This document shows positions 5,691-47,307 of a stretch of DNA of 64,000 nucleotides, one piece after another. A program made the position numbers and the translations under genes. Positions within the stretch are counted from its first letter, which is position 1. The number at the start of each line of letters is the position of its first letter. The notes under the pieces were generated by a model. That model was not told the DNA's origin. It did no database searches and was given only the letters and a program-made list of their open reading frames with translations. The DNA lies in the NCBI RefSeq assembly GCF_011044495.1, contig NZ_CP049143.1:7688001-7752000 (forward strand), given 5' to 3'. The stretch is from Roseimicrobium sp. ORNL1 (GTDB taxonomy: Bacteria > Verrucomicrobiota > Verrucomicrobiia > Verrucomicrobiales > Verrucomicrobiaceae).

Positions 5691-8600
5691 ATGCGTCACT
5701 CGGAAACCCTGAATTCTGCAGGTGTGCGGCGTCCTGCGGGGCGCCTAGCGCTAGGGAGCACCGTAGCTTGCGCGATTCTCATCGTGGGGACGGCCGCCAC
5801 GGTGCATGGCGGTGACATTCTGCGGGGTGGCGCGGCGAAGCCCAATGCCAGGCGTGCGGATGCCGGTGATCAAGCGACCGCCACCGCTGCTGCGCAGGCG
5901 CGCGCGAATGCGAAGGATGCCCTTTCCCGCACAACACAGGCGCTCAATGCCGCGAAGGCCATGCAGGCCGCAGCCCGGGCTGCCGCTGCAGCAAGAGGCG
6001 CCAACAATCTCGGACCGGATCCCAGTCATCCCGGCTTGATGCTGCCGGATGTGCCGAACGGACTTGCCGTGGGCGGCCTTCAAGTGGAGCCGGGTGGCGG
6101 ATGGTCCGGCGCGAATCTTCCCACGCAGTCGAGCAGCGGTGGCAAGGTGCGCGTGACGGTGAAGCAAACCGAATCCCAAGCCCTGCTCAACTGGCGCACC
6201 TTCAATGTCGGTCGCGACACCAACCTGCATTTCGATCAAAGTGCGGGCGGCGCGGACGTCGGAAAATGGATCGCGTTCAACAAGGTCAACGACCCCTCAG
6301 GTTCGCCTTCACAGATCCTCGGTTCCATCACGGCACCCGGCCAGGTGTACATCATCAACCAGAACGGCATCATCTTCGGTGGTACCAGCCAGGTGAATAC
6401 ACATGTGCTCGTTGCCTCTTCCCTGCCCATCAATGGCACCTACGACAGCAATGGCCGACTGATCGCTGATCCCACGAAGAACACGTTGATCACGCGTGGT
6501 CTGCTTAACAATCCGGATGCGCACTTCCTCTTCTCCGCATTCGCCCAGGCGGCTGGAACGAAGGGGCCGACGGAGGGCTTCACCCCGCCACCACTTCCCG
6601 CCAATGGCAAGATCGGAGATGTGACCGTGCAGTCAGGTGCGCAGATCGTCGCGCCCACCACCGCTGCGAACGTCGGTGGCCGGGTGGTGCTTGTCGGTGC
6701 CAACGTGAACAATGCCGGCACCATCTCCACGCCGGACGGTCAGACGATCCTTGCGGCGGGTTTGCAGGTTGGCTTTGACGCCCACCGCAGCAGCGATCCC
6801 AGCCTGCGTGGCCTGGACACGTTTGTGGGTGCCGTGAAGGATCCCGATCCGCAATCGACGATGCCAGAATACGCTGGGACCGTCACGAATACGGGGCTCA
6901 TTGAAGCTCCCCGTGCGAATGTGACTCTCGCGGGCAAGACTATCCGGCACTACGGCGCGATTGAAAGCTCCACGTCTGTTTCGCTGAACGGACGTGTTGA
7001 TTTCGATGCGAGCTACGAGGCGATCAGCAACACGGCCTACAATCCCATCACCAATCCGAATATCGCACCGTTTCTCAGGCGCTCTACCGGTGTGGTGGAG
7101 ATGGGCTCCGGCAGTCTGGTGAGCATCCTCCCTGAGTGGTCGAGCGCGGAAGCGGTGGTTGGCACTCAACTGGCATTACGCTCCCAAGTGAACATTCGCG
7201 GCAAGGTGGTTCATCTGGCTTCAGGATCCTCTATCCATGCGCCGAACGCCCTTGTGGCCATCAGTGCCGGTGTTTGGGACTTCACCCAGGGCCAAACATC
7301 CGCGACCAACCCATTCGTGTATTTTGGTGGCCAGATCTATCTGGATCGCGGCGCCATGATCAATGTCGCCGGTTCCACGGACATCAGCGCACCACTCGCA
7401 CAGCACATTCTCACGGTGGAGTTGCGTGGCGCCGAGCTCGCCGGTTCACCGTTGCAGAGGAGCAGTATCTTCCGCCAGTTGGGGCAGGACAATCCTGATA
7501 TCACGGTCGACCTGCGCCAGACTGGCGTGTACAACGGCCGCACCTGGTATGGCACCCCGCTTGCAGACCTCAGCGGCTACCTTGGCTTGATCCAGCGCAC
7601 GGTGGGAGAGCTTACGATCGCAGGCGGCTCGGTCAGTTTGAATGCCGGCGGGTCCGTGGTGGTGCAGAACGGCGCGGTGATCGATGTCTCGGGCGGGTTC
7701 ATCAACTACCAAGGTGGTACAGTGAAGACCACGCGTGTGATGCATGCGGGCTACCTCATGGAAATCGCGGACGCCACGCCCGACATTGTTTACGACGGCA
7801 TCTTCACCGGGCTCTTCTCCGAAGTGCACGCGCGCTGGGGCATCACCAACACGTATCGGATTCCCTGGATGTCAGGCGAGCACTATGAGCAGCCCTACGT
7901 CCAAGGGGGTAATGGTGGCAGCCTCGCGATGGCCGCATCCGCCATGGCGGTGGATGGGGTGCTGCGTGGCGCCACGGTGGCAGGTCCGCGCCAGCGTGAG
8001 GTGTTGCCGCAGGGCAGCGAACTCACCTTCGCTTTCAAGAGCCAAAAGGTCAGCGTGCTGGAAAACTATCCTTTTCAGTCGCCCACTCCCCCCGCCATTA
8101 CGTTCCAGGAGAACACCGAACAAACTCCTGTGGGCGCTTTTGGCCTGGATGCCTCTGGCAATCCGCTGCCCCTGCCTGCGGATCGCGTTGCTCGATTCCT
8201 TGTCTCGCCTTCAATCTTTACCACAGGAGGTTTTGCCAGTCTTACAGTGGAGAACCCAGATGGAGATGTCACCATACCTGCGGGCGTGGACATAGTTGCC
8301 CCGGCCAAGGGCTCGCTGAAGATCACCGGAGCAAACGTGATCGTGAATGGCTCTGTCACCGCGCCGGGCGGCCTCGTCTCCCTGCTGGCGTACAACATTT
8401 CTCCCTCGGTGAGGCAGGGCTTGCAATTCCAGGACCCGCTCCCGCAGACTTCTCCCCCGCCAAATCCAGACCGCGGGCAGGTGACCCTCGGACCATCGGC
8501 AGTGCTGGACACTGCGGGACTGATTGTCGACGACCGCCTCAGCGCTTCCGCACCGCTCTCCAAACCACTGGTGACAAATGGCGGCACGGTAAACATCACC

Positions 8601-11600
8601 GCCTATGCAGCTGAACTCTCCAGCGGAAGTGTGATCGATGTTTCCGGCGGTCTCGCTGTGAGCAGCACGGGCACGCGAACGTATGGCAATGCCGGTAGCA
8701 TTGTCATCAAGACGGGCCAGGATCCGGGGCTGCTCTCCGTCGTTGGCGGCAAGCTCACCTTGGGCTCCGAGCTGAGGGGATACTCCGGGGCAACCGGCGG
8801 TTCGCTCTCCATTCAGGCACTGCTGATCCAGATCGGCGGCAGGGCACTGCATGAGGATACCTTGCTGTTCCAGCCTGAGTTCTTCAGTCAGGGTGGCTTT
8901 GTCAAATTCAGTCTCACAGGAATTCTTGGCGACGATGGTGAGGACATCCCGCCCGTTTATGTGGCACCGGGCACCAAGATCGAACCAGTGGCGCTTAGCC
9001 AGGTAGCAGTGCTCAATCCTTCAGACTCGCATGATGCCCAATTCATCACGGTACTGAAGCCAGAAGGCCTGCGTTCGCCGGTGAGCATCTCGCTGAATGC
9101 GCCGACATTGAGAGATTCTCTCAATTCGAAGATCATCCTTTCGGTGGGCAATCTCGTATTCGGCAGTGGAGCGTCCATCAAGACGGACGCACTGGGTTCC
9201 GTGTCCCTGACAGGCGGTACTGTGGCGGTGTTCGGTTCCATCGAAGCACCTGGGGGCACGATCAAAGTGACTGGTGAGAGCCAGTACCCCGTGTCCATTC
9301 CAAGCGAGGCAGCGACGGATGCGTTCGTGACGGTCTATCTCGCCCCGGGCAGCCTGCTTTCCACCAAAGGCAAAGTCCTTTACACGCCGGATCAGTTTGG
9401 GCGCACCACTGGCAGCGTGCTTCCGGGTGGCACTATCACGGTCGGTGGCAACATCGTGGCTGCCGCCGGCGCTGTGCTGGATGTCTCCGGGACGAGCGGT
9501 GTGTTGGATTTCCATCCCTCGCAGCTCGGGCTCAACTACTACAAAAACGGCCCGCTGGTACTTCCTATGGTGCCAGCCACCAGCGGTATCAATTCTCCGC
9601 TCTTCCAAAGTCTCGGAGTGCCAACGCGCGTGGACAGCGATGGCGGCACCATGAACTTCGACGGCGCGGAGATCCTCTTTGTCGACGCCACATTGAAGGG
9701 CAAGGCTGGCGGCCCCCGTGCCCTCGGTGGAAGTCTGTCCGTGACCACCAAAGTTTTGGAGCCTACAGGCGTGCAATGGTCTGATACCGACATCACCCTT
9801 GTGGTGACCCAGCATGGTCCTACGCTGCCTGTTCCGTTCGCTCCGGGTGAGTCGGCCATCGGGAAGGCCATCCTTGCTGCCGGGGGCGTGCCCATGCCCT
9901 ACACTTCCACCAGAAGGTATTTCGCGGTGGAGGACTTTCTTAGTGGAGGCTTTGACTCGCTTACCCTCGGTGGAAACATCAGGTTCTCTGGTCCGATTGA
10001 TATTCATGCCCGTGGTTTCCTGAAGGTCGGCTCCGGCGGGGTCATCAATGCTGACTCCGTGGTGAACTTGTCGGCACCCTATGTTCGTATCGGCCAGCCC
10101 TTTGTTCCGCCGCTGCAACCCGAGCAGCAGAGCCTGACTTTCCTCTTTGAGCGCAGCGACGCTACCGGAGCCAATCCCACGGAGTACAATCCCCTTCCGA
10201 CTTGGGGTACAGGAAGGTTGCATGTCACTGCGGACACACTCGATATCGGCACACTCTTGCTGCAGGGCATTGGGGAGGCGAGATTGACGTCCAGAGGAGA
10301 CGTCCGCGGCAATGGCGGACTTGAGATCGCGGGCAATCTCATTCTACAGGCCGGTCAGATCTATCCGACTTCCGGAGCGAACTTCACCATTGTAGCTCAT
10401 GACTACACCGCGCCCGATGGTCCCCATCAGGGCAGTGTGACCATCCTCAGCATGGGCGCGCAGAGCACACCCCTTTCCGCAGGCGGGGTGATGAGCATCT
10501 ACGCTTCGAACATTCATCAAGGCGGGGTGCTGCGCGCTCCGATAGGCACCATCAATCTCGGTTGGGATGGCACAGGCACGGCGCCGCAGGGCCTCATCAG
10601 CGGAACGAGTACCCAGGTAGTGCCTGTGACACAGCAACTCACGCTCGCTGCAGGCAGCGTCACCTCCGTGTCCGCCGTGGATGGCATCACGCGGGAAGAA
10701 TTGTTAATCCCCTATGGATTCAGCCCGGATGGCAATACGTGGGTGGATCCCTTTGGCATTGATATCACCGCCGGCGGGGTACCTGCCAAGACCGTCAATC
10801 TCTCCGCACGCAGCCTCACCACGGAGACCGGATCCCTTATCGATATCAGCGGTGGCGGCGACCTCTTTGCCTACCGGTACGTTCCGGGGAATGGAGGACC
10901 GACGGATATTCTCGGATCCACCGGAAGTTTTGCGGTCATCCCCGGATATAGATCGAACTTTGCGCCGTACGCTCCCTTCAACTCGACGAACAGCGACGAC
11001 AACCTCGCTGGAGGTGAGAGCGGCTATGTCAACGACACGCTCACGGTCGGCGATCGCGTATACCTGAATAGCAGCCCCGGTCTGAAAGCAGGGGTGTACA
11101 CACTGCTGCCGGCACGCTACGCGCTGCTGCCGGGCGCTTTCCTCGTCACCCCGACAAAGGGCAGCCCCATCGGTACATATACCAATGCGGATGGCTCCAG
11201 TTATGTTGCCGGTTATCGATTCAACGACTTGAACTCGGATCGTGTCCTCTCTCCGAAGTACTCCCGCTTCGAAGTGGCGCCGTCGTCCACGTTCCTGCAG
11301 CGTGCGGAATATGAGGGGTATGTTGCCAGCACCTTCCTCCGTGAGGGCGCGCTGGCCGTGGGTGCCACCGTGCCCCGGCTGCCGCAGGATGGTGGTTACC
11401 TGCTCCTGCAGGCCAGCCAGGCCATGCGACTGGATGGCAATGTGAACGCACGCGCCGGGAACGATGGTCGCGGTGGTCTGATCGATATCAGCAGTGTACT
11501 TGATATCGTGATCAATGACTCCGGTACCGGTGGCGGCCCTGGAGCATTGACCCTCAGTGCCTCCAAGCTGTCGAGTTTCGGTGCGGAGAGCCTGCTGGTC

Positions 11601-14600
11601 GGTGGCTTTAGAACATTCAGTGACACTGGGACCACCGTCACGGTGCGTACGGGCAATCTCACGCTGAACAATCCCGGCGGCGCACTGACAGGACCTGAGA
11701 TCATCCTGGCCGCGAACAAGAATCTGACACTGGCGCCGGGCTCATCGATTGTTCAGTCCGGAACGTTGACATCCGCGGATGCCTTGACCGTGCTGGGCGC
11801 GCTTGAGTTGCATACGGTGGGTGAAGCGATTCAATTCTCGCGCGGCGGCACACCGATCAGCTTCCCGAGGGGCACCCCGGGCAACAACCGCATCACGTCC
11901 ACGGTGGGTGGCACCATCACGGATGCTAATGGCACGACTACCACGTTTGCTGCCAATACTCCCACGACGGTGGCGGCTGGCAGCACAGTCACGTTGAATG
12001 CCGCTGGCACCATCAGCTTTGCCAGCGGCACAGGCGGCTCCATACCGATCTCAATTGGCGATGGCGCTTTGGTGCGCGTGAGCGCAGATCCTTCCGCAGT
12101 CACTTCGCGCGGGGCAGTGGCCTCCTCCACGCAACCCAATCTGGTTGTCGGTGCCGGGGTGAACCTCAGTGGCGGTAGCATCACATTGGATTCCACTTAT
12201 GCCACCGCGCTTCACCCGAGTGCCATGCTCACGGGCGAAACCATCAATCTGAACAGCGGGCAGATCAGCATCCAGTTGAACAATCCCGGGGCGTTGCAAC
12301 CCACGGTGGGCCTCGTTCTTTCCGGCAATGCGTTGAATTCCCTTCGTTCCGCCAAGACGCTTTCGCTGCTGAGCTATTCCTCACTCGATCTCTACGGCAC
12401 CGGCCAGTTCTCCACGGAGGGCAAGCTCGCGCTTCATGCGGCGGAGATTCGCGGGTTCAACCAGGGTGCGGGCACCGTCTCCTTCGGAGCCTCCTCCATC
12501 CTTTTGGACAACTCCGCCAACGTTCCTGCCACCGGCACGGCCGGCGCGGCTTCGGGAACCTTGGAGTTCAATGCAGGTGTCATCCAGATCGGTTCCAACA
12601 CCATGCTCGTGAACCGGTACGCATCCCTGGTGCTCAATGCGAGCGACGAGCTTCTTTTCGCGGGAACCGGCGGCCTCACGGCTCAGCAGAACGTCACGGT
12701 GAATACACCAGTTGTCAGTGCGACCCGCTCGGCCGTGCAATCGTTGACTGCGGGCGGTGCACTGGTGATGCAGCGTACCGGCGTCGCCTCGGACATCACT
12801 GCGGGATTGGGCGCGACCCTCGCCCTGCAGGGCACGAGTGTCCTGGTGAATAGCGATATCACCCTGCCGAGCGGTCTCCTGTCCATTCGTGCCACCACGG
12901 GCAATCTGACTGTGGGAGGCCGCCTGGATGTCGGCGGTACTGCGCAAAGATTTTATGATCTGGTGAAATACACCGATGCGGGTGAGATCACTCTCTCTGC
13001 GGACGCGGGTGCTGTATCCGTTTTGGCTGGCGCCGTGATCAATGCCTCGGCGAACCCCGGTGGTGGTGATGCCGGCAGGGTAACCATCAGCTCGCCCACG
13101 AGCACGCTTTCCATTGACGGCCAGTTGCTCGGGGTCGGCGGCACTGGTGGTCGCAGCGGCACGCTGGTGCTCGACGTGGGGCGTCTGGATGGTGGCTTGC
13201 TGAGTAGCATCACGCCCATGCTGGTGGGCTTCAACGAGGCTCGTTCGATTCGCGACCGCCTTGATACCACCGTGACAGTTGATGGTGTCACCGTGGTGCG
13301 GAACTTTGTCCTGTCCGCGGATTCCGGCTCCATTGTGGTCACGGGAACGGTGGATGCCTCAGGAGTGACAGGGGGATCCATCGCGTTGCGTGCTTATCAA
13401 AGCGTGATCCTGGAGTCGGGTTCGCTACTGGATGCCAGCGCGCAGACCTTCAGCAATGCAGGCAAGGGTGGAGCCGTCTATCTGGAAGCAGGCTCCCAGA
13501 AAAATGGAGTGATCGCAGGGGGCACGACTGCTCCCACGGGTTGGGTTGATATACGCACTGGATCCACCATTGATCTCTCCGTCGCAGGGAACACGCCAGC
13601 CAGTGCTTCTGTCGGCTGGCTTACTGGCACGCTGCATCTTCGCGCGCCACAGATTGCAACGGTTGCCAATAACTTCAGCTCCGTCAACGACGTGGCCGTG
13701 CGGACCATCAATGGCTCCATCATAGGAGCGTCGAGCATTCTTGTGGAGGGCTATTGGCTGTTCGATATTTCAAACGCAGCCGGCGCCACCATCACCACTG
13801 CGGTGCAAAACAACGTCCGCACCAATGGCAATGCCCTCGTTGGTGTCGCAGGGTCTCCGGCCGCCGGATACAATGCGATGTTCAACCGCATTGTGGGGAG
13901 CAATCCGAACAACATTGCGCCGCTGCTGATCATCGCACCCGGCGCGGAAATCATCAATCGACTGGGTGACTTGACCCTCGGCACTTCCACCAGCACGTCG
14001 ACTTCTGACTGGAATCTCGGAAACACCACCGCGGGACAGCGATTCCGTTTCGGTCCCAAGGAGGCACCCGGTGTGCTGACGTTGCGTGCCTCTGGAAACC
14101 TGGTGCTTTTCAACACCATCAGCGATGGATTCATCTCCAATCTCTACTATGCCCCGGACGGTTTGGGTTCGGTTTTGGGTCTTCTGCCGTATAATCCAAA
14201 CCTGCCGCTCAATCTGCAGTCCTGGAGCTACCGGTTTACCGCCGGATCGGATGTTCAGGCCGTCGATTTCCACCAGGTACGCCCCCTTGCAAATGTAGCT
14301 GCCACTTCGGGCTCGCTGCTGCTCGGCAAGAATGGTGGTGCGAACACGGCCGCTGGTGGCAACAATGCCTTAACGAGCACCGCTATTGGGAACCCCACCA
14401 CCAGCGCCTATAAGTACCAGGCGATTCGAACCGGAACGGGAACCATCGATATTGCTGCGGCCCGAGATGTGCAGCTACTCAACCAGTTCGCAGTGATTTT
14501 CACTGCAGGTGTTCAAGTGGCGGATCCTACGATGGGCGGCACCTTTGATATTCCGGTACCGGCGATATCAGACGTCCCCCCGGGAAATCTTGGGGTCATT

Positions 14601-17525
14601 CAGCAGCCTACCCCGTCGCCGGTGCAGTACACGATGGCTGGTGGTAGCATTTCGATTTCCGCGGGCAATGACATCACTCACCTGACCCGGAGTAACGCAA
14701 CGACGTTGATTGCGGATTCCTCGAGAGAGATGCCCACCAACTGGCTCTACCGGCGAGGTGCCGTGGATCCTCTCACGGGTCTTTTCACGGAATCCCACTT
14801 CGGCGAAATCGCGTCCACCACATGGTGGGTGGATTTTACGAACTTCTTTGAAGGTGTGGGTGCGCTGGGGGGTGGGGACATCACGATGATAGCAGGGCGT
14901 GACGTGAGCAACGTCGATGCCCTTCTGCCGACGAACGCACGCATGCCAGGCAAGACGACCAGCGGCGACGCGATCGCTCCCAATGCCAGCGCGCTCGTGG
15001 AACTGGGTGGTGGCGATCTCAATGTCCGGGCAGGCCGCAATATCGACGGTGGGGTCTATTATGTAGAACGGGGCACCGGTACGCTTTTTGCCAGCAAGGA
15101 AATCACCACCAACAGCACACGCTCGCCATCGCGAGGCGTTACGAACGGCAGTCTGACCAATCCTGAAGTGTTCACTTCAGAAACGTGGCTTCCTACCACC
15201 TTGTTCGTGGGCAAAAGCACGTTTGATGTTTCTGCGCGGGGCAATGTGCTGCTTGGTCCCGTGGCAAATGCGTTCCTGATGCCACAGGGCTACAATAACT
15301 CATTCTGGTACAAGACATACTTCTCCACCTACGCTCCGGACAGTGGTGTGGAGATCTCCTCAATTGGTGGGACCATCAATCTCCGCAAGGCAGTGACGTT
15401 GCCCAGCACATCGCAAGCGGGTAGTTTCCCCGTGCTCTATCAGTGGTTCACAAAGGAACTGCTCCTGGTTACGTCAGGGACTATTTCCGCATCCAATGCC
15501 CAGCCCTGGTTGCGTCTGTCTGAGACCAGCGTAGTGCCATTCCGCACAGTCATGGATCTCATGGCGCCGAACCTCAAGGTGACCGCCTTCTCCGGGGACA
15601 TCAATACGGTGGGGAATTTCATCCTCAGTCCGTCGCCGACGGGAACGCTTGAGTTCGTGGCCGCGGGCGCCATCGGTGGCATGCGTCCCACGGGGAATGT
15701 GACCCTCTCTGGGGTCACTACAAAGCTTTGGTCTCCTACCCAGATCAATGTCTCGGATTCGAATCCGGCATCCATCTTCAGCATTACCCAGCCGTTTGCT
15801 TATCAGAATCTCTTTGCCACAGCTCAGGCTGGGGGCATCCGCCAGACAGATGCCTCGTTCCTGAATAGTTTTAATGATCGTTTTGAGGAGACCGGTTCCA
15901 GTACTGGCGGCGCCGCGGTGCTCCAATTCAAACAGGCGCTTCACACTCCCGGCATTCTGCATAAAGGTGATCCCAACCCCGTTCGCTTGTATGCGGGCAG
16001 TGGTGACATTTCCGCCGTCACGGTCTTCTCTTCAAAGGCTGCGAAGGTGTTCGCTGGCAGGGACATCACGGATGTGGCCCTCTATATTCAGAACACGGAT
16101 GTGGAGAATATCAGCGTCATCGCTGCAGGACGTGACATCGTGGCCTACAATCCCAGCGCGCCTGCGCGCCTACAGGCCACGGCACCGGGCAATCTCCCGA
16201 ACTTCGGGGTCGTGCCGCTGGCTGGTGACCTGCAGATCAGCGGGCCGGGAACACTCGAAGTGCTTGCCGGCAGGGATCTTTCCCTGGGCTCAGGCGCGGT
16301 CAATGCGGATGGTACTGGTGCTGGCATCACCAGCATTGGAAATGCTCGCAATCCCTACCTTCCGTTCGAAGGAGCCAATCTCATCGTGGGGGCCGGCCTC
16401 GGCGGTTCCTTCGGGCTCTCCGACGGCACTCTGGATATCGAAACGTTCATTTCAGAGGTGCTGGAGGGTCCTGAGGGCGCGCGCTACTTCTCCGAGCTTG
16501 CAGCTACCTCGAATGGCACGGCTATCACCGATGTGGACTCGCTGAGCGAGCTTGAAGATGAAGAGAGGGCGCGCATTGCGCTGAATCTGTTCTTCCTCGC
16601 CCTGCGGGATGCGGGACGCGACTTCGAGATCAATGGAAACTACGACGCGGGTTTTGCGGCCGTCGACGCGATGTTCCCCGACTCGGGAAGTGCCACGGGT
16701 GACATCCACACGTTTTCACGTGACATCCGCAGCAAGAGCGGCGGCAGCATCAGTGTGCTCGCACCCGGTGGCGGGTTGGTGCTTGGCAGCAGCATTCTGG
16801 GAAACCCGTCGGTCCCGCCTGGCGTGGTCACAGAGTCTGGCGGCTCGATCAATATCTTCACGCATAACAGTGTGGATGTGGGCATTTCACGAATCTTCAC
16901 GCTGCGCGGCGGGAATATCATGATCTGGTCTTCCACCGGAGACATCGCGGCGGGCTCGTCGGCGAAGACGGTGCAATCCGCGCCGCCCACGCGTGTGCTC
17001 ATCGACCCCCAGAGCGCGGACATCACCACGGACCTTGCCGGTCTCGCGACGGGTGGTGGTATCGGGGTGTTGGCCACAGTAAAGAATGTGCCTCCGGGTG
17101 ACGTGGACCTCATCGCACCGGTCGGCACCGTGGATGCGGGTGATGCGGGTATTCGCGCCACGGGTAACCTGAGCATCGCGGCTGCGACCGTCTTGAATGC
17201 GAGCAACATCGCCGTGGGAGGTGCCAGCTCAGGCACCCCTTCTGCTCCGGTGGTAGCGGCTCCGAATATCGGTGGGCTCACCTCCGCTTCAAACACGGCG
17301 GGTGCCGGCACTCAAAGCGCCGCGCAGACCGCTGCGCCGCGTCAGGAGGCACCCATGGCAGATGCAGTGCCGTCCATCATGGTGGTGGAAGTGCTCGGTT
17401 ATGGCGGCGGCTCCGGCACCGGCGATGAGGAAGACGAAGAAGAGAAACGCCGCCGCCGCGCACTTGAGACACAGGAGAGTGCCGCGGATCAAGCGCCTGC
17501 GCCCTCGCCAAATCCCACTCGCTGA
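5691..17525 (+). CDS. Giant filamentous-haemagglutinin-like TpsA exoprotein
   Basis: A 3944-residue two-partner-secretion substrate. A signal sequence (about 1-40, ending near VHG) and an Ala-rich linker precede the TPS/haemagglutination-activity domain (about 105-285). That domain has LLNWRTFNVGRDTNLHF and YIINQNGIIFGG, a variant of the NPNGI signature. A very long beta-helical body follows, with repeated Gly/Asn/Val-rich turns such as GSVIDVSGG. A DUF3739-like region (about 2960-3400) contains STTWWVDFTNFF and GGGDITMIAGRDVSN. The C-terminus has an acidic-basic block (GDEEDEEEKRRRR) and no toxin domain, PEP-CTERM signal or autotransporter barrel that I can recognise. The only cysteine I noticed is in the signal peptide. 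The cognate TpsB is probably the product encoded at 18892-20577. Confidence 0.9.
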   Translation: MRHSETLNSAGVRRPAGRLALGSTVACAILIVGTAATVHGGDILRGGAAKPNARRADAGDQATATAAAQARANAKDALSRTTQALNAAKAMQAAARAAAAARGANNLGPDPSHPGLMLPDVPNGLAVGGLQVEPGGGWSGANLPTQSSSGGKVRVTVKQTESQALLNWRTFNVGRDTNLHFDQSAGGADVGKWIAFNKVNDPSGSPSQILGSITAPGQVYIINQNGIIFGGTSQVNTHVLVASSLPINGTYDSNGRLIADPTKNTLITRGLLNNPDAHFLFSAFAQAAGTKGPTEGFTPPPLPANGKIGDVTVQSGAQIVAPTTAANVGGRVVLVGANVNNAGTISTPDGQTILAAGLQVGFDAHRSSDPSLRGLDTFVGAVKDPDPQSTMPEYAGTVTNTGLIEAPRANVTLAGKTIRHYGAIESSTSVSLNGRVDFDASYEAISNTAYNPITNPNIAPFLRRSTGVVEMGSGSLVSILPEWSSAEAVVGTQLALRSQVNIRGKVVHLASGSSIHAPNALVAISAGVWDFTQGQTSATNPFVYFGGQIYLDRGAMINVAGSTDISAPLAQHILTVELRGAELAGSPLQRSSIFRQLGQDNPDITVDLRQTGVYNGRTWYGTPLADLSGYLGLIQRTVGELTIAGGSVSLNAGGSVVVQNGAVIDVSGGFINYQGGTVKTTRVMHAGYLMEIADATPDIVYDGIFTGLFSEVHARWGITNTYRIPWMSGEHYEQPYVQGGNGGSLAMAASAMAVDGVLRGATVAGPRQREVLPQGSELTFAFKSQKVSVLENYPFQSPTPPAITFQENTEQTPVGAFGLDASGNPLPLPADRVARFLVSPSIFTTGGFASLTVENPDGDVTIPAGVDIVAPAKGSLKITGANVIVNGSVTAPGGLVSLLAYNISPSVRQGLQFQDPLPQTSPPPNPDRGQVTLGPSAVLDTAGLIVDDRLSASAPLSKPLVTNGGTVNITAYAAELSSGSVIDVSGGLAVSSTGTRTYGNAGSIVIKTGQDPGLLSVVGGKLTLGSELRGYSGATGGSLSIQALLIQIGGRALHEDTLLFQPEFFSQGGFVKFSLTGILGDDGEDIPPVYVAPGTKIEPVALSQVAVLNPSDSHDAQFITVLKPEGLRSPVSISLNAPTLRDSLNSKIILSVGNLVFGSGASIKTDALGSVSLTGGTVAVFGSIEAPGGTIKVTGESQYPVSIPSEAATDAFVTVYLAPGSLLSTKGKVLYTPDQFGRTTGSVLPGGTITVGGNIVAAAGAVLDVSGTSGVLDFHPSQLGLNYYKNGPLVLPMVPATSGINSPLFQSLGVPTRVDSDGGTMNFDGAEILFVDATLKGKAGGPRALGGSLSVTTKVLEPTGVQWSDTDITLVVTQHGPTLPVPFAPGESAIGKAILAAGGVPMPYTSTRRYFAVEDFLSGGFDSLTLGGNIRFSGPIDIHARGFLKVGSGGVINADSVVNLSAPYVRIGQPFVPPLQPEQQSLTFLFERSDATGANPTEYNPLPTWGTGRLHVTADTLDIGTLLLQGIGEARLTSRGDVRGNGGLEIAGNLILQAGQIYPTSGANFTIVAHDYTAPDGPHQGSVTILSMGAQSTPLSAGGVMSIYASNIHQGGVLRAPIGTINLGWDGTGTAPQGLISGTSTQVVPVTQQLTLAAGSVTSVSAVDGITREELLIPYGFSPDGNTWVDPFGIDITAGGVPAKTVNLSARSLTTETGSLIDISGGGDLFAYRYVPGNGGPTDILGSTGSFAVIPGYRSNFAPYAPFNSTNSDDNLAGGESGYVNDTLTVGDRVYLNSSPGLKAGVYTLLPARYALLPGAFLVTPTKGSPIGTYTNADGSSYVAGYRFNDLNSDRVLSPKYSRFEVAPSSTFLQRAEYEGYVASTFLREGALAVGATVPRLPQDGGYLLLQASQAMRLDGNVNARAGNDGRGGLIDISSVLDIVINDSGTGGGPGALTLSASKLSSFGAESLLVGGFRTFSDTGTTVTVRTGNLTLNNPGGALTGPEIILAANKNLTLAPGSSIVQSGTLTSADALTVLGALELHTVGEAIQFSRGGTPISFPRGTPGNNRITSTVGGTITDANGTTTTFAANTPTTVAAGSTVTLNAAGTISFASGTGGSIPISIGDGALVRVSADPSAVTSRGAVASSTQPNLVVGAGVNLSGGSITLDSTYATALHPSAMLTGETINLNSGQISIQLNNPGALQPTVGLVLSGNALNSLRSAKTLSLLSYSSLDLYGTGQFSTEGKLALHAAEIRGFNQGAGTVSFGASSILLDNSANVPATGTAGAASGTLEFNAGVIQIGSNTMLVNRYASLVLNASDELLFAGTGGLTAQQNVTVNTPVVSATRSAVQSLTAGGALVMQRTGVASDITAGLGATLALQGTSVLVNSDITLPSGLLSIRATTGNLTVGGRLDVGGTAQRFYDLVKYTDAGEITLSADAGAVSVLAGAVINASANPGGGDAGRVTISSPTSTLSIDGQLLGVGGTGGRSGTLVLDVGRLDGGLLSSITPMLVGFNEARSIRDRLDTTVTVDGVTVVRNFVLSADSGSIVVTGTVDASGVTGGSIALRAYQSVILESGSLLDASAQTFSNAGKGGAVYLEAGSQKNGVIAGGTTAPTGWVDIRTGSTIDLSVAGNTPASASVGWLTGTLHLRAPQIATVANNFSSVNDVAVRTINGSIIGASSILVEGYWLFDISNAAGATITTAVQNNVRTNGNALVGVAGSPAAGYNAMFNRIVGSNPNNIAPLLIIAPGAEIINRLGDLTLGTSTSTSTSDWNLGNTTAGQRFRFGPKEAPGVLTLRASGNLVLFNTISDGFISNLYYAPDGLGSVLGLLPYNPNLPLNLQSWSYRFTAGSDVQAVDFHQVRPLANVAATSGSLLLGKNGGANTAAGGNNALTSTAIGNPTTSAYKYQAIRTGTGTIDIAAARDVQLLNQFAVIFTAGVQVADPTMGGTFDIPVPAISDVPPGNLGVIQQPTPSPVQYTMAGGSISISAGNDITHLTRSNATTLIADSSREMPTNWLYRRGAVDPLTGLFTESHFGEIASTTWWVDFTNFFEGVGALGGGDITMIAGRDVSNVDALLPTNARMPGKTTSGDAIAPNASALVELGGGDLNVRAGRNIDGGVYYVERGTGTLFASKEITTNSTRSPSRGVTNGSLTNPEVFTSETWLPTTLFVGKSTFDVSARGNVLLGPVANAFLMPQGYNNSFWYKTYFSTYAPDSGVEISSIGGTINLRKAVTLPSTSQAGSFPVLYQWFTKELLLVTSGTISASNAQPWLRLSETSVVPFRTVMDLMAPNLKVTAFSGDINTVGNFILSPSPTGTLEFVAAGAIGGMRPTGNVTLSGVTTKLWSPTQINVSDSNPASIFSITQPFAYQNLFATAQAGGIRQTDASFLNSFNDRFEETGSSTGGAAVLQFKQALHTPGILHKGDPNPVRLYAGSGDISAVTVFSSKAAKVFAGRDITDVALYIQNTDVENISVIAAGRDIVAYNPSAPARLQATAPGNLPNFGVVPLAGDLQISGPGTLEVLAGRDLSLGSGAVNADGTGAGITSIGNARNPYLPFEGANLIVGAGLGGSFGLSDGTLDIETFISEVLEGPEGARYFSELAATSNGTAITDVDSLSELEDEERARIALNLFFLALRDAGRDFEINGNYDAGFAAVDAMFPDSGSATGDIHTFSRDIRSKSGGSISVLAPGGGLVLGSSILGNPSVPPGVVTESGGSINIFTHNSVDVGISRIFTLRGGNIMIWSSTGDIAAGSSAKTVQSAPPTRVLIDPQSADITTDLAGLATGGGIGVLATVKNVPPGDVDLIAPVGTVDAGDAGIRATGNLSIAAATVLNASNIAVGGASSGTPSAPVVAAPNIGGLTSASNTAGAGTQSAAQTAAPRQEAPMADAVPSIMVVEVLGYGGGSGTGDEEDEEEKRRRRALETQESAADQAPAPSPNPTR

Positions 17526-42101: not shown

Positions 42102-42791
42102 TCACTGCCCGCCCGACGCACTGCGTCGGCGGTCCAGCATGGTTTTCAACGTGGTGAGGTAGCTCCGGGTCTGTTCGCTTTTCCCCGTTACGCCCATGTT
42201 GTTTTCATGAATGCGCCGCTGGTAGAGCACTTCGCCAAGCACGGTGTGACGCAATCCGGCCTCCATCGCTCGCGCATACCAGTCCACGAAATCGTGACCA
42301 TTGCCGAACTTCCCCACGCGGCGCACGGCATCCGTGCGGAAGAGTCCGCCTGACTTCGCAACTCCCGGCAGCACGTCGATGACCCGCTCTCCCTCCGCAG
42401 TCGAAACAAAGCGCTCGGCCTGGCAGAAGACCATGTCGAGGGACGGATCTGCGGTGAGCGCCGCGAGTTGCGCAGAGGTCTTGTGCGGCAGCCAGCGGTC
42501 GTCGTGATCCAGGAAGGCGACCAGCTCGGTCTGCACTTCCTCGAGTCCATGATTGAGCGTGTCTGCCAGACCACCGTGAGCCTTGCGCACTACATGGACA
42601 TCGGGGAATCGGGCTTCCACAAAGTCCGCGCTGCCATCCGAAGGGCCGTCCTCCACCGCGATGATGCGACTCACTGGTACCGTCTGCGCCTGAATACTCT
42701 GGATCGCCTCCGCTACCAGCGGCACCGCCTTGTACATCGGAATGATGACGCTGATGCCCGAGGATGAAGTGATGAGGACGCGTTCGATCAT
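42102..42791 (-). CDS. Family 2 glycosyltransferase
   Basis: 229 residues from the ATG at 42791; the frame opens upstream inside the preceding gene, but only this start gives the canonical GT-A opening. GT-A fold markers are ISVIIPMYK (residues 13-21), the nucleotide-binding EDGPSDGS and the DxD-type metal motif FLDHDDRW. No membrane span was seen. It transfers a sugar from a nucleotide-sugar to an unknown acceptor. It is the last of four co-directional genes (PqqD-like, HPr-kinase-like, GT4, GT2) with gaps of 13 bp or less. Confidence 0.88.
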   Translation of the reverse strand: MIERVLITSSSGISVIIPMYKAVPLVAEAIQSIQAQTVPVSRIIAVEDGPSDGSADFVEARFPDVHVVRKAHGGLADTLNHGLEEVQTELVAFLDHDDRWLPHKTSAQLAALTADPSLDMVFCQAERFVSTAEGERVIDVLPGVAKSGGLFRTDAVRRVGKFGNGHDFVDWYARAMEAGLRHTVLGEVLYQRRIHENNMGVTGKSEQTRSYLTTLKTMLDRRRSASGGQ

Positions 42792-42804
42792 GGAGGTGAT
42801 GCAA

Positions 42805-43944
42805 TCACAGAACTGAGGTGTGGATAGGTGGCGTTGCCCCGCTTGCTTCACGGTACCACTGCAGATGCTTTTCCAGATACGAGCGATAACCAAACCGGGC
42901 CTCGGCAAGCTGGCTGGCTTGCTCACCCATGGCACGCAGTTTCACTGGGTCATCCAATAGTGATGCGATGGCGCTTGCCAGCTCCTCCGGATTCTCCGGT
43001 TCCACCAGCAGACCGGACACACCCTCTTCCACCACTTCAGGCACGCCGCCCACACGAGAAGCCACTACTGCGCGTTGCATGACTGCTGCTTCGAGACATA
43101 CGATGCCAAATGGCTCCTGCCAGCGGGAGGGCAGCAACACCAGCGTCGATTGATTCACCATGGCAGGCACCTCGTCATTTGGCACGCCACCGTGGAAGTG
43201 CACACGCCCGCTCAAGCCAAGCTTGCGACACAGTGTTTCCAGATTCGAGCGCTCCGTGCCTTCTCCCACCACCATCATCCGCACGTGCGACCAATGCTCT
43301 GGCAACAGTGCCAGTGCATGCAGTGCCACGTCGAATCCCTTTTCAGGTGCCAGCCTTCCCAGACACAGAAGTACCGGCGGATCCCAGGGAAGTTCGCAAG
43401 GCGGTATGGTCGGAGAGTGAACGCTGTTGGGCAACAGATGCATCTTCCCCGCGGTCTCCGGCACCGCGGAGGGAATGCCCTCCAGCAGCACACGATTTGC
43501 GGCAATGATGAGTGCTGACTCCCGCAGCAGTCGCAGCGTGGAGGCACCGCCTTGCAGCACGGTATCCAGTGGCGTTTGCAGGGTGGTCACCACTGGCAGT
43601 GCAGGAGCGCGGTTGGTCATCTGCAGCAGCATCACCAGAGGACCTGCGAGAAAGAAGTGATGCAGGTCTGGCGCAAAGTCCTCGCGGATCTTTTTCACCT
43701 GCTGGCAGAGGTGATGAAGCCGACGCGGATCGCGGCTCTGCAAGGTCTGCACGAAGTCGATGCGATGAATCTCCGCGCCATGATGCATCTCCTTGTCCGG
43801 CAGGTCCAGCGCATGCCGGTTGGTGAGAATGGCGCAGGCGTGCCCCTCGCGCACCAGTGCTTGAGCGAGCTGGCTCACGAGGATCTCCACCCCACCCACG
43901 TGAGGGAGAAAGATTTCGCACCAGAACAGAATCCTCATGCCCAT
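42805..43944 (-). CDS. Family 4 (GT-B) glycosyltransferase
   Basis: 379 residues. The N-terminal half opens with the GT4 pattern MRILFWCEIFLPHVGGVE, where the GG loop contacts the acceptor. The C-terminal half has LGRLAPEKGFDVAL (sugar-nucleotide domain) and the E-x7-E motif in EPFGIVCLEAAVM. The product is probably a cytoplasmic retaining glycosyltransferase for a polysaccharide or glycoconjugate. It starts 12 bp after the HPr-kinase-like gene ends. Confidence 0.92.
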   Translation of the reverse strand: MGMRILFWCEIFLPHVGGVEILVSQLAQALVREGHACAILTNRHALDLPDKEMHHGAEIHRIDFVQTLQSRDPRRLHHLCQQVKKIREDFAPDLHHFFLAGPLVMLLQMTNRAPALPVVTTLQTPLDTVLQGGASTLRLLRESALIIAANRVLLEGIPSAVPETAGKMHLLPNSVHSPTIPPCELPWDPPVLLCLGRLAPEKGFDVALHALALLPEHWSHVRMMVVGEGTERSNLETLCRKLGLSGRVHFHGGVPNDEVPAMVNQSTLVLLPSRWQEPFGIVCLEAAVMQRAVVASRVGGVPEVVEEGVSGLLVEPENPEELASAIASLLDDPVKLRAMGEQASQLAEARFGYRSYLEKHLQWYREASGATPPIHTSVL

Positions 43945-43956
43945 ATCCGTGAAGGC

Positions 43957-45048
43957 TCAGACTTCGTTGGCGCGATTGAGGATGTTCCTCACGGCAGGCG
44001 CTATCTCTTCCGTGCGTGTGCCCAGCAGCAGACGGAAGCAGGGCAGGCCACGCAGCACCGCGGCCATGTCGCGGAACGCGGAGCCATCATCCGGCGAGAA
44101 TTGGAACATGGTGCTGGAGGTCAATGCTCGCAGGGCCATGGCGGGTGGAAGTGGTTCGAAGGTGGTATGCTCCGTGCCTGTCACCTGGGGCACAATCACC
44201 GCCCGCAGCGGCAGGCTGGGCTTCACCTGTGAGGGGAAGTGCTCGTGCATGAAGATCAGAGGCTTGTCGAACGCATCCGGCACAGGGTCCACTGATCTCG
44301 CGGCGAGTTCGGGGAAACGCAGGAAGTGATCGCGATGCAGTTTCCCGCTGCTGTTCAGGCAGTGCACCTGCGGCTCCTCTCCAGCCTGCACGAGGCAGAA
44401 GTCATCACTCAGGAAATGCATGCCTGCGAGGACGCAGAGCAGGGACGTGGTCGACTTGCCGGAGCCGCCCTTGCCCGCGATCAGTGCGGCCCCTGCATCC
44501 GTCCCGACAGCGCCAGCATGCACGAGCCGCAGGCCTTGGGCTTTCGACCACCAGTGCATCAGCGTCAGGAATGGTGCCGCGCGGAAGAAGGTGGGTAGTT
44601 GTCTGGCGTCCTTTGTCCAGAAGACCGCCTTGCGCTCCGCCACGGAGTACATGAAGAACATCACGCCCTCTTCATAGGCGTGCACGCGAAAGGCTTCTCC
44701 ACCAGGTGGCAGCACGAGACGCACGGTACCGGAGAGTTCTGACCACGCCCACGGCAGCTCCGGAGCGCTCACGCCGCTTTCCGTTTCGTCCCACGCGAGG
44801 ATCTCCAATGCGGGTGCTGCATCGTCATTCTCACCAGAAATCATGTGAGCCCACGCGGGAGCGAGCGCTGAGGCAAGCTGTTTGCCTGCGATGCTCAGGC
44901 GCACGTGATGCCCCGCCAGCGTGTAGGACTGGGCAACGACGCCCGTGCGCTCGCTCGCGTGAGCAGATGCGCTGCACAACCGCTGGAAGCAGTCTTCCAG
45001 AAGGCGGTGAACCCGCACGTGGTCTTCGGCAGGAGCTGCCGGCATCAT
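43957..45048 (-). CDS. HPr-kinase-like P-loop protein
   Basis: 363 residues from the ATG at 45048, which overlaps the stop of the PqqD-like gene (ATGATG). The frame is open for 109 more codons upstream, but that is the PqqD gene read in another frame. The C-terminal half has a Walker A motif GKGGSGKST (192-200) in the setting of HprK kinases (VHAGAVGTDAGAALIAGKG) and an acidic FLSDDFCLV strand (212-220). The N-terminal half is not recognised. Related kinases accompany PqqD-like proteins in lasso-peptide and polysaccharide loci, and some phosphorylate a peptide substrate. Confidence 0.8.
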   Translation of the reverse strand: MMPAAPAEDHVRVHRLLEDCFQRLCSASAHASERTGVVAQSYTLAGHHVRLSIAGKQLASALAPAWAHMISGENDDAAPALEILAWDETESGVSAPELPWAWSELSGTVRLVLPPGGEAFRVHAYEEGVMFFMYSVAERKAVFWTKDARQLPTFFRAAPFLTLMHWWSKAQGLRLVHAGAVGTDAGAALIAGKGGSGKSTTSLLCVLAGMHFLSDDFCLVQAGEEPQVHCLNSSGKLHRDHFLRFPELAARSVDPVPDAFDKPLIFMHEHFPSQVKPSLPLRAVIVPQVTGTEHTTFEPLPPAMALRALTSSTMFQFSPDDGSAFRDMAAVLRGLPCFRLLLGTRTEEIAPAVRNILNRANEV

Positions 45049-45491
45049 GCGCGCTCTTCGGTGACGGCGCGCAGCGGCCAGCCGACCTGCACATCCACAT
45101 CGTGAATCGGATCGATCAGCAGCAGGTCCTGCATGTCCAGATGGCTCTCGAAGATCGGCGCCGTGTAGGCAGCACTGATGGCAGGTAGAGTGAGATCCGA
45201 AGTGGAGGTCTCTCCTGCATTCGTGTTTGTGTTTTCCACCAAGAGGCCGCCGTCTACGAGTTGTGCCACGAAGGTGCGCACATCGGCTTCCAGAGTCGGC
45301 GACGCATCCGCATAGGAGTGGTGCATCGCCTGCACGACCTGCACTTCGCTGCGTCCTTCTACCAGCAGCTTCCACATCTCCACACCCGTGCCGCGGATGC
45401 TGTGGTAGTGGCCATTGCTCAAGTTGATGGCCAAAACTTCCTCATCGAAAATTTCGGCGCTCGCATCGGGTTCATTCAATCGATAAATCAC
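45045..45491 (-). CDS. PqqD-like (RRE) protein with conserved-looking tail
   Basis: 148 residues from a GTG. Residues 1-87 form a PqqD-type winged-helix carrier, with LAINLSNGHYHSIRGTGVEMWKLL in the core (shorter key part: NGHYHSIRGTG) and a helical VRTFVAQLVDGGLLV end. PqqD/RRE domains bind leader peptides for modifying enzymes. A linker leads to a 40-residue tail (about 108-148) with DMQDLLLIDPIHDV and GWP, which is more than a carrier needs. It is the first gene of the four-gene minus-strand run, and its stop overlaps the kinase start. Confidence 0.8.
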   Translation of the reverse strand: MIYRLNEPDASAEIFDEEVLAINLSNGHYHSIRGTGVEMWKLLVEGRSEVQVVQAMHHSYADASPTLEADVRTFVAQLVDGGLLVENTNTNAGETSTSDLTLPAISAAYTAPIFESHLDMQDLLLIDPIHDVDVQVGWPLRAVTEERA

Positions 45492-45523
45492 GGGAGTCTT
45501 TTTTGGGAGTTCGTTTGGGGAGT

Positions 45524-45561
45524 TTGACCCCTTGCATTCACCGGACCAGAATTCTATAGAA
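45524..45561. promoter_or_regulatory. Candidate promoter/operator between PqqD-like and nucleotidyltransferase genes
   Basis: Plus strand: TTGACC (45524-45529), a 17-bp spacer and CAGAAT (45547-45552) point towards the gene at 45667. A second choice is TTGCAT (45532-45537), 17 bp, TATAGA. A perfect 10-bp palindrome, TTCTATAGAA (45552-45561), lies in this zone and could serve both directions. The rest of the 175-bp gap shows nothing named. Confidence 0.35.
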
Positions 45562-45666
45562 ACTCACTGCGAGCTGCAAAAATCCCCCCGCAGCCGTGGT
45601 CAGGCAACACCTGCGGTGCAGTGAAGTGGACTCGCTTCGCTGCAAACGCGGGTAACGCCAGACGCC

Positions 45667-47307
45667 ATGATCCCTATCAACAACTTCGCGCCGGTCTCCA
45701 CACGGCTGCCTGGCGGCTGCTGGCCCACGCCCGCACAGACGTTGTTGCTGCGTGCGTGCCTGTTGGAGCCTGGGGCAGCGGTGAAGGCCTGGGAGCAGTG
45801 GACACGCACGCACGACTTCGAAGCGATTGACTCGGGTTCCTTCCGTCTGCTCGGGCTCGCACATCGTCATCTCACCCAGGCGGGTGTTTCCGGGGCGCTC
45901 ATGCCCCGGCTCCAGGGCGTGTACCGCCGCTTCTGGACGGCCAACCAACTCCTACTGGGTCGCAATGCCCCAGTCCTGAAAAGCCTGACCGAGGCGGGCA
46001 TTCCCCTCATGCTCACGAAGGGGGCGGCGCTCACGGTTTCTGTGTACCGAGACTACGGCACCCGCCCCATGGACGACCTCGATCTCATGGTGCCGAGAAG
46101 TCATGCGCTTCGGACCATGGAGGTGCTGGAGGGATTGGGCTGGGAGCCCGAGGTGCAACACTCCAAGGAGCTGCCCGAGACCCTGCACGCCTGCCACCTC
46201 CGGCGGGATCGGCTTGGCATCATCGATCTCCACTGGAGGCACTTTCACCTCGCGGTGCCAGAGGCGTTGGATGCTGCCATCTGGGAGCGCTCGATGACCT
46301 GCAGCTTCCACGGCATCGAAGCGAGAGTGCCTGACTACAGCGATCAATTCCTGCGCGCCTGCGAACACGGCGTGCGATACAACATCGTGCCGCCCTTCCG
46401 CTGGCTGGCGGATTGTTTTCAGCTCTGGAAGGTATCCGAAGGGAAGCTCGACTGGGAACGCATCGCGGACGGAGCACGCCACACCGAATCCGTGCTGGCA
46501 GTGAAATGCACGCTGCGGTTCCTGCGAGATCAATTGGACGTCCCACTTCCGGAGGAGGCCTTTACACGACTGGAGAAAACACCCGTGACGTTCTTTGAGC
46601 GCGTGGAGTCCCGGCTGGTGCAGCGCCCCTGCCGCAGCTTGTGGGGCAAGCTGCCGCTCGATATCTCCTGGCATCTCCGCAGCACACGAGGGCAGCCATG
46701 GAGCGAGCGCATCTCCGGTTTCCGCACCTACTTCCGCCACTCGAACAATCTCACACCCGGCCAGTTCACCGCGCACCACCGGGCGCAGGCGCAGCGCTGG
46801 GTGCGTTGCTGGCTACCCTACCATCTGCGCCGCATCCCGCGTCTCTTGCAGCGCGCTGAGCCCGGCGGCGTGCGATCCTTTGCCGAGGAAACGCTGTGGG
46901 GTTTCCATGAGATAGAACCCTGCGGTCACCGCCTCATGCGCTGGTCGCTGCCCACGGCCTCGCTTGGTCTCACCCTTGGCAGGGGGAAGGCTTTCAAGAT
47001 CCTCATCGACACCGGCAAGCTGCGCGCCTGGACCTCCGACCTTTCCCGGCATCTCACCTTCAAGCTGGATGGCGAGCTTATTCCACCAGCACAGGTGAAG
47101 GGCAAGCAGGGCATCCTCACCATCCGTCTCTACGCCCTGGAATCGCCCGAGCCAGGGCAGGGTTCGCGTGAAGCTCGCCTCTCGTGGGAATGTGAACCTG
47201 CCAGCATCTCCGGCGAGACCCGGCCTCTGGGTTTGCCTGTATTTGCATTGACGGTGCGCACTCTGAAACCTCAGGCCGCTGAGGCGGTGGTCCTTGCCCA
47301 GGTCTGA
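45667..47307 (+). CDS. Nucleotidyltransferase-family protein (NTP_transf_5-like) with C-terminal beta-rich domain
   Basis: 546 residues. The nucleotidyltransferase core (about 95-330) has the family markers MLTKGAAL (115-122) and YGTRPMDDLDLMV (130-142, metal-binding DDLD), followed by IIDLHWRHFHL. A C-terminal module (about 405-546) begins WGFHEIEPCGHRLMRW and is rich in beta-strand patterns, as in sugar-related modules. The NTP_transf_5 family is often encoded beside PqqD-like and HPr-kinase-like genes, as here on the opposite strand. Substrate unknown; a role in modifying a peptide or sugar product of this locus is inference. Confidence 0.8.
   Translation: MIPINNFAPVSTRLPGGCWPTPAQTLLLRACLLEPGAAVKAWEQWTRTHDFEAIDSGSFRLLGLAHRHLTQAGVSGALMPRLQGVYRRFWTANQLLLGRNAPVLKSLTEAGIPLMLTKGAALTVSVYRDYGTRPMDDLDLMVPRSHALRTMEVLEGLGWEPEVQHSKELPETLHACHLRRDRLGIIDLHWRHFHLAVPEALDAAIWERSMTCSFHGIEARVPDYSDQFLRACEHGVRYNIVPPFRWLADCFQLWKVSEGKLDWERIADGARHTESVLAVKCTLRFLRDQLDVPLPEEAFTRLEKTPVTFFERVESRLVQRPCRSLWGKLPLDISWHLRSTRGQPWSERISGFRTYFRHSNNLTPGQFTAHHRAQAQRWVRCWLPYHLRRIPRLLQRAEPGGVRSFAEETLWGFHEIEPCGHRLMRWSLPTASLGLTLGRGKAFKILIDTGKLRAWTSDLSRHLTFKLDGELIPPAQVKGKQGILTIRLYALESPEPGQGSREARLSWECEPASISGETRPLGLPVFALTVRTLKPQAAEAVVLAQV

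Follow-up and report, generated by a model that had tools for sequence, protein, structure and literature searches.

The closest described relatives of the locus studied here are gene clusters that pair a recognition element for ribosomally synthesized and post-translationally modified peptides (RiPP recognition element, RRE) with an HprK-like kinase and a nucleotidyltransferase (NTase). In the linear polyphosphorylated peptide (LPP) clusters, described from Bacillota by Popov et al. 2026, the LppK kinase polyphosphorylates its peptide at Ser3; the authors could not identify the final LPP product and call the nucleoside triphosphate (NTP) transferase uncharacterized (PMC13381572). For pseudomycoidin, PsmK is reported to phosphorylate a Ser, to which PsmN then attaches one or two hexoses (reviewed in PMC9266682). 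We analyzed a related five-gene cassette in a 64,000-nt stretch of the Roseimicrobium sp. ORNL1 genome (contig NZ_CP049143.1, positions 7,688,001 to 7,752,000; referred to as the window), which encodes a PqqD-family RRE protein, an HprK-like kinase, glycosyltransferases (GTs) of the GT4 and GT2 types and a divergent NTase of the NTP_transf_5 family.

LPP clusters resemble this cassette, at the level of family membership, in having a discrete RRE, an HprK-like kinase and an NTP transferase but no cyclase (PMC13381572). They also often have an MsbA-like exporter, lie near glycan loci and use the leader motif YxxPx[V/L] (PMC13381572). In LPP clusters, however, the precursor LppA is encoded separately and there is a peptidase of the SpI type (PMC13381572); neither a separate precursor nor a peptidase was found for our cassette, whose leader-like motif is instead fused to the RRE as part of a C-terminal tail, whose GT2 is near-constant and which occurs in many phyla. 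No small open reading frame (ORF) with the LppA-type sequence YxxPxVLxHQxIxFETxxS lies near the locus, and the tail has YxxPxF but not HQxIxFETxxS. An earlier note on this DNA had placed the PqqD-HprK-NTase triad in lasso-peptide clusters. This is correct for the paeninodin/pseudomycoidin-type phosphorylated lasso clusters, which share the PqqD-type RRE (B1), the HprK-like kinase and a nucleotidyltransferase of the hexose-adding pathway (PMC9266682), and it extends to the LPP clusters (PMC13381572). Unlike the lasso clusters, the cassette locus lacks a macrolactam synthetase, a B2 peptidase and a separate precursor. Both RRE-Finder and the structure-based tool that succeeded it reported fusions of an RRE to a GT2 domain (PF00535), of unknown product (PMC7470986, PMC12710340); here, RRE and GT2 are separate proteins accompanied by a kinase, an NTase and a conserved tail of which we found no mention in those papers. 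We rejected membership in the lasso or LPP classes, since a separate precursor and a B2 peptidase are absent and there is no cyclase at the locus.

Literature searches for DPIHEV-like motif strings found no papers, and none mentioning the family PF14907 was found. Nor did we find a description of the cis leader-RRE layout, the conserved tail or the constant GT2 partner, subscription literature lying mostly outside the search. The enzyme module is already known; a precursor that is apparently fused to its RRE is the new form.

A conserved C-terminal tail on the RRE protein

The PqqD protein is an RRE by sequence (PF05402, 46.7 bits against a cut-off of 23.4) and by fold, which matched the lasso RRE TbiB1 (5v1v) with Z 12.1 and a root-mean-square deviation (rmsd) of 2.1 Å over 87 residues. 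Foldseek aligned the RRE domain to the TbiB1-leader complex (E 2e-5), and the fold also matches TfuB1; both lasso RREs were solved with leader peptides. The RRE domain (residues 3-86) is followed by a variable linker, after which the protein terminates in YTAPIFESHLDMQDLLLIDPIHDVDVQVGWPLRAVTEERA, and its C-terminal tail reads YTAPIFESHLDMQDLLLIDPIHDVDVQVGWP. The tail is ordered as a leader motif, [F/Y/W]xxPx[L/V/I/F], followed by the near-invariant DMQ-LLL-DPIHEV…GWP. With some tolerance in its last position ([FYW]xxPx[LVIFMA]), the motif occurs at an identical distance before D119 in 44 of the 52 type-A tails. Type-B tails (n = 32), which come mostly from gut Gastranaerophilales and Clostridia, keep LLLADPIHEV...GW and have an F at -9, with the Pro usually absent.

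RREs of lasso and LPP systems bind the leader motif [Y/W]xxPx[L/V/I/F/A], and the residues after it add a strand to the RRE sheet (PMC13381572). The AlphaFold2 model of the PqqD protein (alignment of 79 sequences; mean predicted local distance difference test (pLDDT) score 86) contains a strand at residues 113-117 within a confident block (111-120, pLDDT ∼93), whereas residues 121-148 score ∼63. As all other predicted strands lie in the RRE domain, this strand must pair with the RRE, and the leader motif is predicted to be docked in cis on its own RRE, which would leave the conserved segment facing outward.

The same tail is carried by distant homologues. Scanning one genome per species with a PqqD alignment and two patterns, one of them inside the tail, returned 80 tail-bearing loci, so that the cassette is found in many phyla and is not peculiar to this genome. 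Record labels include Verrucomicrobiota, Kiritimatiellota, Bacteroidota, Planctomycetota, Chloroflexi, Acidobacteria, Actinomycetota, Nitrospirae, Delta-, Alpha- and Gammaproteobacteria, Cyanobacteria, Firmicutes and others, although many of the loci come from metagenome-assembled genomes and labels may be wrong. Isolates with tailed loci are Verrucomicrobium BvORR106, Kiritimatiellota B12222, Pararoseomonas and Ruminococcaceae AB4001, to which a complete Crinalium plasmid can be added.

Weighted entropy was 1.03 bits in the tail segment compared to 2.42 bits in the RRE domain, and D127, P128, H130, G137 and W138 are near-invariant. To control for circularity, we considered 25 sequences retrieved with the domain pattern only, which had still passed a tblastn filter with a tailed query: mean pair identity was 69% for the tail against 34% for the RRE and 9% for the linker, and D127 and H/Q130 were present in all 25. 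When 289 genomes of the phylum were searched with a whole-length profile, the matches were bimodal, six loci reaching profile position 133-142 (125-160 bits) and 37 stopping at 84-97 (<57 bits). A search of the loci with a hidden Markov model of the tail, covering 37,616 ORFs, small as well as large, hit PqqD proteins only and no free-standing copy.

As a separate observation, the PqqD protein at L026:6590-7012 (-), beside HprK and NTase genes, ends in WEYDPPQLTKCGDLETLILSGE, which has a lasso-leader-like YxxPxL but no DPIHEV; it is possibly an intermediate form.

Gene neighborhoods of tailed RREs and the search for free precursors

Among 85 non-redundant tailed loci, with partners counted within 6 kb, 83 had an HprK gene (75 within 300 nt on the same strand), 78 a GT2, 70 an NTase and 21 a GT4. 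HprK, NTase and a GT occurred jointly in 68 of the 85. The earlier note's suggestion of a possible new type, with glycosyltransferases and no cyclase, was borne out. A further recurring gene class, represented by an ABC exporter, was present in 31 of 87 loci; the Crinalium locus also has an ABC-transporter protein. The phylum scan supplied 36 tail-less RRE loci for comparison with the tailed ones over equal distances of ∼4 kb. GT2 was found in 76/85 tailed and 1/36 tail-less loci (p 7e-21, indicative given that the sets differ in taxonomic breadth and that the GT2 profile derives from the tailed loci), HprK in 81/85 and 21/36, and NTase in 58/85 and 14/36. By these counts, RRE-HprK-NTase is a general module, and GT2 accompanies the tail.

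Free precursors were sought as ORFs of 28-90 aa with an ATG start and [YW]xxPx[LIVM] near the N-terminus, outside long ORFs and within 2 kb of the RRE. Such ORFs were found at 9 of 37 tail-less loci (control motifs 0-2) but only 2 of 85 tailed loci (controls 0-4; p 3e-4), with criteria that were tightened after a cruder pass had been seen and with a tail-less set that is limited to one phylum and combines different kinds of RRE. The first, crude scan had given 18/36 against 18/36, a signal not separated from the control. No small-ORF family recurs near tailed RREs, and no credible separate precursor with a YxxP leader lies near our locus. PF13471 (the B2 leader peptidase) had no match over cut-off in this genome or in 28 of 39 host genomes or records. 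The gene list at the locus contains no macrolactam synthetase (no genome-wide search for it was made), and no archaeal-type SpI peptidase is obvious among the neighboring genes (no SpI profile search was made). The earlier note had stated that macrolactam synthetase, peptidase and precursor gene are all missing; this holds for the first two and for a separate precursor but leaves out of account the PqqD tail, which has the architecture of a leader peptide.

Precursor-like ORFs were seen near some tail-less RREs. At L027:6114-6293, a free-standing ORF with YESPKL lies directly upstream of the RRE, and an HprK-like ORF ∼5.7 kb from it. Two tandem ORFs (MKKTYKKPEIRKVKLVPSEAVL...) are found at L142:5213-5704, in a locus with HprK and NTase, and repeat-rich ORFs (KKIYQSPVLYSLNAKM..., then repeated TG-type units) at L123:5345-5954, with HprK and NTase nearby. 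Two relatives from the same order (L023:8154-9455 and L028:2837-5649) encode a large repeat protein, a protein of 52-59 aa, a GT2, a tail-less PqqD-like protein and HprK, and the L023 variant also an NTase. The 52-59 aa protein has a twin-arginine-like start and a conserved end (...PLF...LEPI) and could be the substrate of its variant system.

Possible roles of the tail

The most economical reading, which we give a probability of about 0.45, is that the tail is a precursor in cis on which the kinase, the NTase and the glycosyltransferases act. The cassette would be a system for phospho-glycosylation whose core is an RRE with a precursor-like peptide of its own. YTAPIF would dock in cis in the peptide groove of the RRE and thereby present the segment DMQDLLLIDPIHDV...GWP to all four enzymes (HprK-like kinase, NTase, GT2 and GT4). 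By analogy with PsmK and PsmN of pseudomycoidin, the kinase and the NTase would lay down a first, phosphate-linked sugar on the tail, which would serve as acceptor or primer, and the GTs would lengthen the chain. The ABC exporter near about a third of the loci could export the product. A leader-like tail on the RRE may also explain the missing separate peptide gene. Put more broadly, and more tentatively, this would be a hitherto undescribed class across bacterial phyla with recognition domain and precursor in one protein: the RRE would hold its own tail as leader and primer while the kinase, nucleotidyltransferase and GT2s build a phosphate-linked glycan on DPIHEV...GWP, perhaps at a residue that enzymes of this family have not been seen to modify before.

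Several points weigh against the reading as a precursor in cis. The tail contains no conserved Ser, Thr or Tyr, and in 10 of the 52 type-A tails the part after D119 is devoid of Ser and Thr, so an HprK-type kinase specific for Ser could not treat all tails alike. This argues against simple Ser phosphorylation; if the tail is the acceptor, it would be modified at an unusual or variable residue. Moreover, the 32 type-B tails generally come without the Pro of the leader motif, the pairing partner of strand 113-117 was deduced from the predicted strands rather than seen in coordinates, and no peptidase belongs to the recurring gene set. Finally, conservation as extreme as that of the tail fits a binding motif no less than a substrate.

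The tail could be a pseudo-leader in cis and a docking motif but not a substrate, with DPIHEV...GWP recruiting the kinase, the NTase or the GT2s for another acceptor such as a glycan or a lipid-linked sugar. We regard this possibility as a close competitor of the first, at odds short of even. It would account for near-invariant residues that do not include a hydroxyl residue and for the very tight association of the tail with HprK and GT2, and it agrees with the resemblance of the NTase fold to ANT(2'')-Ia and FKRP, a phospho-polyol transferase acting on glycans, and with the CBM-like (carbohydrate-binding module) C-terminal domain of this NTase. However, a scaffold role does not by itself explain the leader-type motif before the segment, and no gene for another acceptor recurs among the small ORFs, although a glycan acceptor would need none. 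Both this role and that of a precursor in cis are new compared to the LPP and phospholasso systems, whose leader comes in trans.

We consider it unlikely that the substrate is a separate precursor encoded elsewhere in the genome and the tail an autoinhibitory plug displaced by the true leader. RRE grooves do normally take leaders in trans (PMC13381572), and tail-less relatives with HprK and NTase have YxxP peptides nearby, but precursor-like ORFs are at background level beside the 85 tailed RREs, the tail is conserved far beyond the needs of a plug, and the leader+D motif, searched with a narrow DNA pattern, occurs once in this genome with no second copy. Less probable still is an ordinary cassette for capsule or exopolysaccharide decoration with the PqqD and HprK homologues as regulators. 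GTs dominate the loci, and there are capsule loci close to LPP and paeninodin clusters, too (PMC13381572). Nevertheless, no Wzx/Wzy-type flippase/polymerase set is apparent in the gene lists of the cassette or its recurring neighbors (no profile search was made), the flanking genes in the window look unrelated, and we found no fully described capsule pathway containing the triad, the finding that the earlier note had named as decisive against a new type. Decay of a lasso or LPP cluster, with loss of the cyclase, the peptidase and the precursor, might be suspected from the shared RRE, HprK and NTase families and from lasso RREs being the nearest structures, but it has next to no likelihood, as the tailed form is a distinct class kept across phyla with its motifs intact, GT2 partners are rare in tail-less loci and PF13471 is missing here and from most host records.

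Genome mining based on RREs assumes that a free precursor is encoded next to the RRE. If the precursor-like sequence is the RRE's own tail, such systems would be discarded as precursor-less; the near-invariant tail provides a simple search handle for them. The PqqD protein also offers a single protein on which the action of HprK-like kinases and NTP_transf_5 enzymes can be tested, and, if the tail is indeed a glycan primer, this would be a new way of starting a bacterial glycoconjugate.

Layout of the locus and its enzymes

All five cassette genes are present, intact and tightly packed (Table 1). In agreement with the earlier note, the minus-strand genes are separated by 13 nt (GT2/GT4) and 12 nt (GT4/HprK) or overlap by 4 nt (ATGA, HprK/PqqD), and the NTase diverges from the PqqD gene. 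For GT2, the ATG at 42791 is the likelier start, since the longer ORF (to 42935) would run into GT4. The two promoter-like matches in the intergenic region compare with 0.1 expected from shuffles and are consensus matches only.

Table 1. Features of the cassette, in window positions
Feature	Position	Strand	Evidence
GT2 glycosyltransferase, 229 aa	42102-42791	-	PF00535 3.2e-21
GT4 glycosyltransferase, 379 aa	42805-43944	-	PF00534 2.3e-43
HprK-like kinase, 363 aa	43957-45048	-	NCBIfam HprK_rel_A 37.6 bits; conserved P-loop GK, D215/D216
PqqD-family RRE protein, 148 aa, GTG start	45045-45491	-	PF05402 4.1e-12
RRE (winged helix-turn-helix) domain, residues 3-86	45234-45485	-	pLDDT >90 over most of residues 1-90; Foldseek
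Leader-like motif YTAPIF, residues 109-114	45150-45167	-	same register in 44/52 type-A tails
Near-invariant tail segment DMQDLLLIDPIHDVDVQVGWP, residues 119-139	45075-45137	-	weighted entropy; D127 and H/Q130 conservation
Divergent intergenic region PqqD/NTase, 175 nt	45492-45666	.	two promoter-like matches, one per strand
NTP_transf_5 nucleotidyltransferase, 546 aa, divergent	45667-47307	+	PF14907 4.5e-34
NTase C-terminal beta-sandwich, residues 399-533	46861-47265	+	resembles GH146 accessory domain, CBM35

The genome (7.96 Mb, one contig) has a single PF05402 match over cut-off, one match to this HprK-like kinase and one PF14907 match. The kinase is absent from the other species of the genus examined and was matched in just 11 of 240 genomes of the order, a patchy distribution as expected of horizontal transfer. 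Four relatives (L015-L018) have the same divergent order, NTase < > PqqD-HprK-GT4-GT4-GT2, with GT2 flipped in three of them; more distant loci of the order keep the PqqD, HprK, GT2 and NTase set in varying order. The repeated divergent order, together with the co-occurrence of HprK, NTase and GT in most tailed loci, indicates that the genes are not grouped by chance.

The kinase scored below the family-model cut-offs (PF07475, 13.5 bits against 33.3; TIGR04352, HprK-related kinase A, 37.6 against 200) and had no useful match among PDB sequences. We nevertheless call it HprK-like because of its P-loop, G197-K198-S/T, with GK in 85/85 homologues, and its Asp pair (D215 in 82/85, D216 in 84/85). 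In Gastranaerophilales loci (L099:8479-10017 and similar ones among L088-L109), an HprK-like kinase directly upstream of the tailed RRE is fused to a second, degenerate RRE (PF05402, residues 399-460).

The NTase exceeded its cut-off clearly (PF14907, 118.6 bits against 31.2), and its catalytic-type residues G119, R133, D137 and D139 are near-invariant. Its modeled core (94-288) matched MenT1 (Z 14.2, rmsd 2.7 Å, 177 aligned residues), and the fold also matches TM1012, LnuA, ANT(2'')-Ia and FKRP. As the groups that enzymes of these types transfer are nucleotidyl or phospho-polyol, the reaction cannot be read from the fold; LicD/FKRP and ANT(2'')/MenT enzymes share the fold of residues 85-300 at just 8-18% identity, from which a substrate cannot be inferred. 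The modeled C-terminal beta-sandwich resembles the GH146 accessory domain and CBM35 (Z 8.0-9.7, rmsd 2.9-3.3 Å, 107-112 aligned residues), which suggests a domain that contacts carbohydrate. Of the shorter NTases of other phyla (ORFs of ∼350-420 aa), most have no room for it.

In GT2, D97/D98 are invariant in 79 homologues, while several other family-conserved positions deviate in this protein. An apparent RRE-GT2 fusion in L076 is not claimed, as undetermined residues (XX) lie at the join. Elsewhere in the window, one open frame of 3913 codons (5784-17525, +) was called as a single gene.

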